46,322 nt of DNA from Bacteroidales bacterium (GTDB lineage: Bacteria > Bacteroidota > Bacteroidia > Bacteroidales > UBA932), in contig JAKSKD010000013.1 of NCBI GenBank assembly GCA_024401925.1, positions 1 through 46,322 of the forward strand, given 5' to 3'. The position numbers were made by a program, and so were the translations under genes. Below are positions 43,290 to 45,994 of this stretch, one piece after another. Below the pieces are notes generated by a model that had not been told where the DNA came from, did no database searches, and was given only the letters and a program-made list of their open reading frames with translations. The stretch's first letter is position 1, and each line of letters begins with the position of its first letter.

Positions 43290-44312
43290 ATGGCAGATAT
43301 AATTCTTGGAATCGAATCATCGTGCGATGACACTTCCGCAGCCGTCATAAAGGACGGGTGGCTGCTTTCCAATGTCATAGCAAGTCAGGACGTCCATAAG
43401 GCTTATGGCGGCGTCGTCCCGGAACTTGCCTCGCGCGACCACGAAAGAAATATCGTACCGGTGGTAAGCGAAGCAATCTCCCGTGCGGGAATCCGCAAGG
43501 AAGATCTTACCGCCATTGCCTTCACACGCGGCCCCGGCCTTTTGGGATCTCTGCTTGTAGGCACTTCCTTCGCAAAGACCTTTGCTCTGTCTCTTGGCAT
43601 TCCGTTGGTGATGGTGAACCACCTGCAGGGCCACGTGCTTGCGAATTTCGTGAAGCAGGAAGGCTCCGAGAACCGTCAGCCTTCATTCCCATACCTTTGT
43701 CTGCTCGTATCCGGTGGTAATTCCCAGATTGTGAAAGTGAACAGTCCCCTGGATTTCGAAATTCTCGGACAGACCATAGATGATGCTGTAGGGGAGGCTT
43801 TCGACAAATGCTCCAAGATGATGGGACTCGGATATCCGGGAGGCCCTGTGATTGACAGGCTCGCAAAACAGGGAGACCCGTTGCGTTTCAAATTCGCCAA
43901 GCCTCATATCGAGGGCCTTGATTACAGTTTCAGTGGCATCAAGACATCCCTTCTTTATTTCGTGCGCGATGAGATGGCGAAAGACCCGGAGTTTATGGAA
44001 AAGAACAAGGAAGACATTTGTGCTTCATTCCAAAAGGCGCTGATAGATATTCTTCTCGACAAACTGGTGAAAGCCGCAAAACAGACCGGGATAAAGGACA
44101 TCACGATAGGCGGCGGCGTTTCTGCCAACAGTGGATTGCGTGGCAGGATAGTGGAGGAAGGGCAGAAAAGAGGATGGAACACGTTCCTCCCAGAATTCAA
44201 ATTCACCACCGACAACGCTGCAATGATAGCCATCGCCGGCTATTTCCATTATCAGGCAGGGGAACGTTGCCCTATGGATATTGCTCCGGTGTCCAGAATC
44301 GCTGATTTCTGA
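43290..44312 (+). CDS. tsaD: tRNA N6-adenosine threonylcarbamoyltransferase TsaD
   Basis: A 340-residue metal-binding ASKHA-fold protein that, with TsaB and TsaE, transfers the threonylcarbamoyl group to A37 of ANN-decoding tRNAs (t6A). Seen are IILGIESSCDDTSAAV at the N-terminus, VPELASRDHERNIVP, ITAIAFTRGPGLLGSL-type and VNHLQGHVLAN segments, YLCLLVSGGNSQIV, GEAFDKCSKMMGLGYPGGP, and ITIGGGVSANSGLRG. The frame is open from 43188, but the ATG at 43290 gives the family's N-terminus and lies just downstream of a perfect -7 element. Its stop overlaps the next start as TGATG. Confidence 0.96.
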   Translation: MADIILGIESSCDDTSAAVIKDGWLLSNVIASQDVHKAYGGVVPELASRDHERNIVPVVSEAISRAGIRKEDLTAIAFTRGPGLLGSLLVGTSFAKTFALSLGIPLVMVNHLQGHVLANFVKQEGSENRQPSFPYLCLLVSGGNSQIVKVNSPLDFEILGQTIDDAVGEAFDKCSKMMGLGYPGGPVIDRLAKQGDPLRFKFAKPHIEGLDYSFSGIKTSLLYFVRDEMAKDPEFMEKNKEDICASFQKALIDILLDKLVKAAKQTGIKDITIGGGVSANSGLRGRIVEEGQKRGWNTFLPEFKFTTDNAAMIAIAGYFHYQAGERCPMDIAPVSRIADF

Positions 44313-45994
44313 TGAAGACAATTGAACTTGCCATACCTGTGGAAAAGGCTCTGTCCGTGAAGGGGGTGGAGTCTCTTGCATCACGTCAGAACAATGGGGC
44401 CGAATGTGTAGTGACCAAGAGGTCTCTTGATGCAAGGGGTGGCATAGTTTACAGGTACCAGATCGAGGTGTATGCTCCCGGCGAGCATCCCGAACCTTAC
44501 AAAGTCCCGGAGTACAGGGATGTCAGGGATTCAGAACCCGTAATTGTTGTCGGTGCCGGTCCGGCAGGAATGTTCGCGGCATTGAGATTACTTTCGCTTG
44601 GCCTGAAGCCGATAATCCTGGAAAGGGGAAAGGACGTCCACGCCCGCAAGACTGATATGGCAAAGCTCTCCCGTGAAGGCACTATCAATCCGGATTCCAA
44701 CTACTGCTATGGCGAAGGCGGGGCGGGAGCGTTTTCTGACGGTAAATTGTTCACCAGATCCTCAAAACGCGGCGATATACGGCTTGTGCTGCACCAGCTG
44801 GTGCGTTTCGGCGCTTCTCCTGATATCCTCATCGATGCTCATCCCCATATCGGTAGCGACAAACTGCCTCTCATTGTAGAAAACATTCGTAAATGCATCA
44901 TTGAACATGGTGGCGAATACCACTTCAACTCCCGTGTCGTCGATATTTCAGGGGCAGACGTCGGACGCTGTCCGCAAAACGTCGGCTGCGCCGACCCCAC
45001 CATTCGCTCCGCTTATGGTCCCCCCTCTTATGTCGCCGAGGGTGGCACAGTTTTGCCGGACAAGTCCGACGTCTGCCTTGACATAAAAAAACAGACAGCG
45101 TCCGGAACCTGCAACCTGAAATATAAAATTTTGACGGATAAAGGCGAAACATACACCGCATCGAAGGTAATACTAGCGACCGGCCACTCCGCCCGCGACA
45201 TCTACGAACTGCTGGACAGGAAAGGCGTGACCCTCGAAGCCAAAGGCTTTGCTCTGGGCGTTCGCGTGGAACATCCGCAGGAGACAATCAATCGCGCAAG
45301 ATACCACGGAAGAACCTGGAAAGGGATGCCGGCGGCAGAATACTCCTTCGTAGAACAAGTGGACGGAAGAGGCGTTTTCTCCTTCTGTATGTGCCCTGGT
45401 GGCATATTGGTACCGTCATCGACAGAAGAGAACACCGTCGTTCTTAACGGAATGTCCAACTCTGCGCGAAATTCCAGATGGGCAAATGCAGGAGTCGTCG
45501 TGCAGATAGAACCTGAGGATGCTCCGGAGCAATATAAGTCCGACGGAGCATTCTCACTGCTGAATTATCAGAGGGACATTGAGCGGTCGATGACGCAGCA
45601 TACATCCCACCCTCTCGCCGCACCGGCACAGAGAATGATAGACTTCTGCAAAGGAAGAATATCCTCTGATTTGCCCGAAAGCTCATATTTCCCGGGAACC
45701 GTCCCGGCTCCTCTCCATATGATGCTCCCTCAAGGAGTCTCAAACCGTCTGAAAAAAGCTTTCACTTTGGTGGACAAGAAGATACACGGCTATTACAGCA
45801 ACGAAGCCCTCCTGCTTGGCGTGGAGTCCAGAACATCTTCCCCGGTGCGTATCCCGCGCAATCAGGACACACTCCAGACCGCATCAATGCCGGGACTCTA
45901 TCCGTGTGGAGAAGGCGCAGGCTACTCCGGAGGAATAGTCTCAAGCGCAATAGACGGAATCCGTTGCGCAGATGCTGCGGCTGAAAAAATCTAG
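44312..45994 (+). CDS. FAD-dependent oxidoreductase (COG2509) carrying an in-frame inserted palindromic element
   Basis: A 560-residue flavoprotein of the COG2509 group of uncharacterised FAD-dependent dehydrogenases. An N-terminal extension (1-70) precedes the dinucleotide-binding motif VIVVGAGPAGMFAALRLL (GAGPAG at 81-86), then ILERG, the YCYGEGGAGAFSDGKL segment, VILATGHSARDIY, and the C-terminal GLYPCGEGAGYSGGIVSSAIDGI. Residues about 214-256 interrupt a strand region (RVVDI then KKQTAS) and are rich in Cys, Pro and Gly; they are encoded exactly by an inverted-repeat element (44953-45077). Without it the protein would be about 517 residues, closer to what I expect for the family. The reaction is unknown. 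The start overlaps the tsaD stop (TGATG). Confidence 0.85.
   Translation: MKTIELAIPVEKALSVKGVESLASRQNNGAECVVTKRSLDARGGIVYRYQIEVYAPGEHPEPYKVPEYRDVRDSEPVIVVGAGPAGMFAALRLLSLGLKPIILERGKDVHARKTDMAKLSREGTINPDSNYCYGEGGAGAFSDGKLFTRSSKRGDIRLVLHQLVRFGASPDILIDAHPHIGSDKLPLIVENIRKCIIEHGGEYHFNSRVVDISGADVGRCPQNVGCADPTIRSAYGPPSYVAEGGTVLPDKSDVCLDIKKQTASGTCNLKYKILTDKGETYTASKVILATGHSARDIYELLDRKGVTLEAKGFALGVRVEHPQETINRARYHGRTWKGMPAAEYSFVEQVDGRGVFSFCMCPGGILVPSSTEENTVVLNGMSNSARNSRWANAGVVVQIEPEDAPEQYKSDGAFSLLNYQRDIERSMTQHTSHPLAAPAQRMIDFCKGRISSDLPESSYFPGTVPAPLHMMLPQGVSNRLKKAFTLVDKKIHGYYSNEALLLGVESRTSSPVRIPRNQDTLQTASMPGLYPCGEGAGYSGGIVSSAIDGIRCADAAAEKI
44953..45077. repeat. 125-bp palindromic element inserted within a coding sequence
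   Basis: Perfect 13-bp terminal inverted repeats (44953-44965 and 45065-45077) extend inward to about 28 bp with two small indels (44953-44980 and 45050-45077). Inside are further hairpins: CGGAC-GCT-GTCCG (44962-44974), GTCGGC-TGC-GCCGAC (44981-44995), ACCAT/ATGGT (44999-45003 with 45015-45019) and CCCTC/GAGGG (45023-45027 with 45038-45042). No transposase is encoded, as in a MITE-like or REP-like element. It adds no stop and keeps the host frame open, like the Rickettsia palindromic elements. No target-site duplication is clear, and I saw no second copy in the window. Confidence 0.7.

Follow-up and report, generated by a model that had tools for sequence, protein, structure and literature searches.

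A palindromic element read in frame in genes of Bacteroidales, with a pseudoknotted core found in both orientations

The Rickettsia palindromic elements (RPEs) are palindromes of about 150 bp which are repeated in the genome and stand in frame in unrelated metabolic genes (PMC10969869), and whose repeat identity is reported to be lost over time (PMC6649704). RPEs (PMC10969869, PMC3733652) are the nearest described kind to the element studied here, a 125-bp palindrome in the gene of a flavin adenine dinucleotide (FAD)-dependent oxidoreductase of a Bacteroidales bacterium (lineage UBA932). The stretch of DNA analyzed, called the window below, comprises the 46,322 nucleotides of positions 1 to 46,322 of contig JAKSKD010000013.1 (GenBank assembly GCA_024401925.1). 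Like the RPEs, the window element is a palindrome (fold z about -6.8) that is repeated (five copies in its own genome) and lies in frame in unrelated genes (three in its own genome, and 96 of 126 testable copies overall). It differs from them in belonging to another phylum, the likeness being one of description, in arms that are copy-specific and stay paired, in a pseudoknotted core, and in the occurrence of both orientations at one site.

Invertible promoters and intragenic invertons are known from Bacteroidales. As in invertons, inverted repeats here flank DNA that occurs both ways (at about 10 of 19 sites, compared between species), in some cases in genes; unlike invertons, the invertible segment is a dispersed repeat family and the outer arms have no common recognition sequence. 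Coding palindromes of Nematomorpha mitochondria keep inverted repeats in functional genes, and template switching has been proposed for them (PMC6649704); the portion of that article used here describes no conserved dispersed core for them, whereas such a core is present in our family. For yeast genes, the consulted part of PMC8604942 reports that template switching homogenizes arms and inverts spacers in coding DNA; unlike the yeast case, the core described here is usually open on both strands. Miniature inverted-repeat transposable elements (MITEs), repetitive extragenic palindromes (REPs) and the RAYT and TIRYT systems include small palindromic repeats, some with terminal inverted repeats, and REPs also occur inside replication and repair genes (PMC3733652, PMC10969869, both in part). 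REPs measure 20-40 bp and carry GTAG or CGTC tags, against 100-190 bp and other conserved motifs here, and unlike RAYT and TIRYT systems our family showed no linked transposase in a Y1_Tnp search of 61 genomes with ten stretches inspected. In the open-licence PubMed Central articles searched, we met no description of this element, whether as a Bacteroidota equivalent or as a repeat that inverts inside genes.

The palindrome in the flavoprotein gene and its recurrence

The host gene and the palindrome comprise the following features.

44312-45994, strand +: host gene, FAD-dependent oxidoreductase of 560 amino acids (PF21688 C-terminal domain, N-terminal FAD-binding matches, orthologues)
44953-45077, no strand: palindromic element, 125 bp, in frame, about 43 residues (repeats, folding, frames, orthologue loop)
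44953-44980, strand +: left arm of the enclosing stem, copy-specific sequence (inverted-repeat search)
45050-45077, strand +: right arm of the enclosing stem (inverted-repeat search)
44943-44952, strand +: outer 10-bp arm, perfect complement of 45115-45124 (inverted-repeat search)
45115-45124, strand +: outer 10-bp arm, partner of 44943-44952 (inverted-repeat search)
44961-45070, strand -: match of the family covariance model R1, 76.5 bits, E 2.4e-20

A preliminary description, made from the letters of the window, had placed a palindrome at 44953-45077, and the inverted-repeat search bore this position out; the observation is confirmed. The 28-nt arms match at 22 of 28 positions without gaps (79%) and at 26 positions with small gaps, in line with the roughly 28-bp imperfect terminal repeats first reported; the perfect outer run is 14 bp and not the 13 bp then given. 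The several internal hairpins were recovered as well: the strand folds as an enclosing stem with three hairpins inside it, with z from -6.7 to -7.0 (RNA -6.81 and -6.96 for the two strands, DNA -6.72), and none of 200 dinucleotide-preserving shuffles folded as well in each of the three folds. Six pairs of inverted 13-mers at most 150 nt apart were counted in the window, this element included, against none in 20 mononucleotide shuffles. The open reading frame (ORF) 44312-45994 runs through the insert free of stops, as had been claimed; five of the six frames of the element lack a stop, and the flavoprotein frame stays open when the window copy is inverted in silico. Model R1, built from 64 copies, has a single match in the window at E 1, that of 44961-45070, which is found by construction because the window copy is among those 64.

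Flavoprotein matches were obtained in 57 of 61 genus genomes, from which the 30 best loci were aligned. The core stands in the loop after the RVVDI-type strand in 4 of these 30 orthologues (the own genome, G008, G082 and G015; G and L numbers designate genomes and loci), and the other 26 lack it in that loop, which is mostly short there. Different, longer inserts occupy the loop in L039, L040 and L061, that of L039 having a similar layout with a hairpin plus GGCCCCTCCC. In L053 (G003), a core copy was seen at about 711-780 in the open stretch that immediately precedes the flavoprotein start, outside the loop. The same pattern of presence and absence is found in other hosts. ArgC gave a DNA match in 157 of 400 genus genomes, and among the 30 loci in which its loop was read through, the element is present in 3 (own genome, G203, G237) and absent in 27; for a GHMP kinase, read as IspE, it is present in L031, L032, L100, L128 and L138 and absent from the orthologue L146. 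The ArgC loop of L074, L088 and L090 holds the short peptides SHSGLDPES, CHPERSEGS and ILRFAQDD, which we take to be common repeat-derived peptides of bacterial proteins; this loop seems tolerant of several palindromic repeat families.

The own genome contains five copies, four strong and one weaker (C34). Three are in frame, in the flavoprotein, in ArgC and in a radical S-adenosylmethionine protein read as the pyruvate formate-lyase-activating enzyme, and the C12 copy lies between ORFs. The core pattern, with at most two mismatches, matched 7 of 61 genomes, the own one included and all within the genus, perhaps GTDB Cryptobacteroides, and a scan for the exact pattern with one genome per species gave at least 120 stretches. 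All 120 stretches listed come from records that are Bacteroidota by title (Bacteroidales, Bacteroidia and one Prevotellaceae), many of them from herbivore rumen, omasum or faeces. With the covariance model, copies were detected in 126 of 200 genus genomes (threshold E 1e-6, scoring being limited to 18 candidates per genome), in 4 of 295 genomes at the level of the order (E 1e-4, own included) and, among 395 genomes of the phylum, in the own genome only (E 1e-5), the large searches having been run with stricter filters by which weak matches are lost. A sister subfamily with GGGAGGGGCC-type spacers between the hairpins was observed at L039, L020, L028, L038, L207 and L214 and in G576 and G606 copies, and extends to other families of the order.

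A native protein loop was rejected in view of the shared core in many unrelated genes, and carriage by phages was rejected since no IMG/VR contig contains the exact core pattern. The preliminary view of a foreign, repeated, in-frame palindromic element is therefore supported: the insert is missing from most of the orthologues examined, and many further copies exist in this genome and its relatives. The likeness then drawn to RPEs applies to behaviour, as an in-frame palindrome in unrelated genes, kinship not being implied. The word domesticated fits in the sense of in-frame tolerance but not of retention for usefulness, as the data say that the element is tolerated and no more. The pseudoknotted core, the covarying copy-specific arms and the two orientations at orthologous sites, described below, go beyond that first view.

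A pseudoknotted core within copy-specific arms

On the minus strand, the core of the window copy comprises the following features.

45017-45042, strand -: most conserved core block, CCCTCGGCNNCRTAAGAGGGGGGACC, exact in four own-genome copies
45031-45049, strand -: pseudoknot helix, 45049-45044 with 45037-45034 plus 45032-45031, one base bulged (coordinates derived by hand from alignment A1)
45023-45042, strand -: helix H1, CCCTC (45042-45038) with GAGGG (45027-45023) (folding, covariation)
44999-45019, strand -: hairpin H2, of a length that varies among copies (folding, alignment A1)
44981-44995, strand -: hairpin H3 (folding, alignment A1)

The core, about 85-100 nt long, is made of an H-type pseudoknot, two hairpins and G-rich spacers. 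In alignment A1 its order is the conserved block CCCTCGGC....TAAGAGGGGGGACC, hairpin H2, GGTGGGG and hairpin H3, all enclosed by the arms. The enclosing stem measures about 20-40 bp and its arms differ from copy to copy, being copy-specific in most of alignment A1; the whole element varies between 100 and 190 bp, and the aligned copies have no common end sequence. In the 64-copy alignment, the named helices show standard pairs in 91.7% of cases against 78.3% when shuffled, with 280 doubly changed cells against 90, and a covariation score of 0.356 against 0.127 in shuffled and at most 0.113 in slid alignments; further pair types are marginally above the shuffles (29 of 500 reach the value). For the arms, the eight stem pairs counted all change on both sides.

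The pseudoknot helix was missed by the folding program. In it, the bases that precede ACCCTC are joined to the H1 loop (NNTGCC to GGCA.NN), and since it crosses H1 the structure is an H-type pseudoknot. This helix covaries across copies, with a pairing of 95.5% (shuffled 77.8%) and a covariation of 0.406 (shuffled 0.096, slid at most 0.068); its pairing, double-change cells and covariation are above all 500 shuffles and all slides. Its two outer pairs, which are outside the search pattern, vary as C-G/A-T/T-A and C-G/G-C/A-T (55 of 64 copies each).

Mispairs in the arms of the same alignment comprise 28 G-U and 25 A-C cells, numbers so similar that the arms do not obviously evolve under the constraint of a single RNA strand. 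Between orthologous copies, a 32-nt core block is 92-95% identical, with about 14 of its letters fixed by the search pattern, and the flanks average 75-86%. Rfam 15 gave no covariance-model match at E 10 or better for window positions 44700-45300, and a known structured RNA was rejected on this basis. The motif GCGAAGC, presumably an unusually stable DNA mini-hairpin, is present in 43 of 64 copies.

Copies of G033 with near-identical cores and unrelated arms suggested the idea that arms are a pure inverted duplication of the target. It was dropped as a general rule because G576 and G031 copies share arms, and it is also contradicted by the orthologous L026 and L157, which keep related arms with double changes. 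In G576, three copies (L259, L263, L267) share arms as terminal repeats, as if they had spread recently. Four copies of G031 (L013, L018, L023, L027), most of them near contig ends, have arms and further flank in common, as if they were part of a longer repeated unit.

Copies in genes and both orientations of the core

Altogether 160 distinct copies were collected. Sixteen did not have enough flank for folding, and 143 of the 144 folded copies have at least 8 enclosing pairs; 18 more lie too near a contig end, which leaves 126 in which ORFs could be tested. Ninety-six of these 126 stand in a frame that is open for 120 codons or more (200 codons or more in 90 of them), and 30 do not, the longest frame having been taken so that a few assignments may be wrong (e.g., L037). 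The gene runs in the direction of the core in 47 genic copies and opposite to it in 49, and a single frame dominates in each orientation (41/47 and 33/49, respectively).

Pfam matches were examined in 13 hosts, namely the three own genes and ten others, which were chosen by hand to be diverse and so are not a random sample: a TrmB-type methyltransferase, a GHMP kinase, an isopentenyl pyrophosphate (IPP) transferase, two DNA polymerases I, two FtsK, LytB/IspH, a 2-oxoacid dehydrogenase E2 and an aldehyde dehydrogenase. The core falls between Pfam domains in several of them. In DNA polymerase I it is at amino acid 351, between domain stretches that end at 294 and start at 376, and in E2 at amino acid 107, between domains that end at 79 and start at 146. 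Annotators should be aware that the recurring peptides ATLG.VRGGT and APP..VPPL..PRVA are repeat-derived.

Both strands of the core are usually open. Among the 74 genic copies in the two main frames, the frame of the opposite orientation is open in 66 (37 of 41 plus 29 of 33), and both frames are open in 8 of the 30 non-genic copies. When the element was flipped in silico, the host frame remained open in 70 of 88 genes, compared with 2137 of 5280 control flips of the same length elsewhere in the same genes (40%). Selection keeping both orientations open is suggested by these counts; the evidence is partial, and subfamilies that each go back to a founder copy could give a similar picture.

Locus pairs whose flanks are at least 80% identical and in which both members have the element were grouped by hand into 19 orthologous sites. 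The core occurs both ways at about 10 of these sites and one way at 9. In the clearest cases, the flanks and outer arms stay as they are, and what changes sides is the core together with the inner-arm asymmetries; these are L137/L139 (IPP transferase, 88% flanks), L099-6259/L183-3505 (88.8% flanks) and a second site where L099 and L183 are inverted relative to L106 and L135 (79-82%, compared by eye). The pairs L010/L160 (90%) and L162/L170 (84%) are consistent with inversion, with arms that are more diverged. Pairs in the same orientation include L160/L204 (97%; inverted in G017), L110/L123 (94%) and L033/L136 (91%).

At two more sites with at least 80% flank identity, one partner is without the core (L154/L207 and L157/L217). 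The L154/L207 alignment does not run through the site. The element is shared at one intergenic site by L157 (1364-1482, RUG14710) and G033, and absent there in G096 (L217, 2595-2600); the flank repetition is inverted, not direct, and one GTGAAAG flank is left in L217. In L155 (1649-1734) and L178 (1176-1324), flanks are about 96% identical, and L178 changes sequence inside H3 and then continues with a second element; an independent inversion was rejected for this pair in favor of a rearrangement at the element or an assembly join.

Proposed mechanism and competing explanations

We consider it likely that the family is a selfish palindromic element, similar to RPEs in action, whose arms are homogenized and whose core is flipped by template switching during replication. 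New copies would spread through an enzyme acting in trans, perhaps by way of a folded single strand, and survival would be limited to insertions that preserve the frame and lie in loops or in linkers between domains. As the DNA is replicated, the growing strand would switch between the arms, so that one arm copies the other and sometimes the whole core flips. By analogy with the cases described or proposed in other organisms, template switching is probably the flipping process; it would explain arms that are copy-specific yet paired as well as flips that do not alter length. Since the length stays the same on flipping and neither strand usually contains a stop in the host frame, the effect on the host protein would be the exchange of one loop of about 40 residues for another. 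In the flavoprotein, the insert is predicted to form an exposed, disordered loop at residues 214-256, after the strand ending in RVVDI, the enzyme being still active.

Such an element would extend in-frame palindromic selfish DNA from Rickettsia to widespread Bacteroidales of the herbivore gut, in copy and species numbers sufficient to study how elements of this kind survive inside genes. Also, the pseudoknotted core, the coevolving arms and the two open orientations make it testable whether replication errors can reversibly rewrite loops of essential enzymes.

Several observations weigh against this explanation. Neither a mobilizing enzyme nor a target-site duplication nor a clean pre-insertion site came to light, the transposase search having covered Y1_Tnp only. 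L217 was rejected as an empty site and is better read as a loss: judging from the sequences, the element has probably been lost there, because L157 and the more distant G033 share it. The comparisons of orientation are between species, from uncultured or unnamed assemblies, and not within a strain, and at L011/L101, L109/L150 and L015/L038 the arms have diverged so far that re-insertion may be the explanation instead. The inversions described in the consulted part of PMC8604942 for yeast are of 2-5 bp and change up to two residues, against a core of about 100 bp here. With frame -0 open, frame +2 is open in 29/33 genic versus 8/20 non-genic copies (P 0.0005), whereas with +2 open, -0 is open in 37/41 genic versus 8/10 non-genic copies (P 0.58), and these P values are optimistic because the copies are related. 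Control flips matched for G+C content are open in 1467 of 2827 cases (52%), in the 51 genes which allow matching. The conservation of the core, H1 included, is partly by construction since copies were collected by the core pattern, and the pair types and doubly changed pairs of the pseudoknot helix are not above shuffles (446 and 179 of 500 reach the values).

A bolder version, which we advance tentatively and regard as rather improbable, is that of a pseudoknotted selfish element which codes in register on both strands and is flipped repeatedly in essential genes, such that the loops of DNA polymerase I, FtsK, the IspE-like kinase and further core enzymes alternate between two peptides within a population. 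As selection would then see both orientations, flipping would be fast compared with point mutation.

Among the alternatives to a selfish element flipped by template switching, the one that survives best, although we judge it unlikely, is a MITE or REP-like element of the ordinary kind, mobilized by a transposase (e.g., Y1/HUH), opposite orientations being independent insertions into a few tolerated loops. The arms shared as terminal repeats in G576 (L259, L263, L267) and in G031 agree with it, as do the other inserts held by the same loops in other species and the Y1_Tnp matches in 46 of 61 genomes. These matches do not track the element, however: within the genus they occur in 6 of 7 carriers of the pattern and in 21 of 30 non-carriers, and G031, which has copies, has none. 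In ten stretches around Y1 matches, the core was met once (L250, about 1.6 kb away) and never on both sides, and linkage to a RAYT was rejected on these grounds. Moreover, in three inverted pairs the flanks and outer arms remain homologous and the inner asymmetries have changed sides. Proteins of about 210-320 amino acids that match the Y1 transposase weakly and have no copies of the element on either side (L248, L251, L252, L255, L256) were observed in 27 of 37 genus genomes searched.

Two further explanations have, in our opinion, little chance of being correct. A site-specific recombinase might invert the core, which would then be an intragenic inverton subject to phase variation. The high share of sites with both orientations would fit, and invertible DNA has been described in Bacteroidales; but recombinase sites share a recognition sequence, which the outer arms of different copies do not, and surface structures are absent from the 13 hosts scanned, all of which are enzymes or DNA-handling proteins. 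Alternatively, and with a similarly small probability, the core might be a functional structured RNA (a regulatory RNA, a ribozyme or a guide-RNA scaffold) whose location in genes is incidental. The strong covariation of pseudoknot and hairpins speaks for it, and so does the identity of the 32-nt block relative to its flanks, about 14 of the 32 letters being fixed by the pattern. The 47 genic copies in one direction and 49 in the other indicate instead that the transcript strand seems irrelevant, no Rfam family was matched at E 10, and G-U and A-C mispairs in the arms are about equal, as for a structure at the DNA level. Finally, ribosomes bypassing an untranslated segment, as in the Magnusiomyces mitochondria mentioned in the portion of PMC6649704 consulted, would agree with the strong mRNA hairpin but is very improbable, since a bypassed segment could do without an open frame, whereas 96 of 126 copies lie in one.
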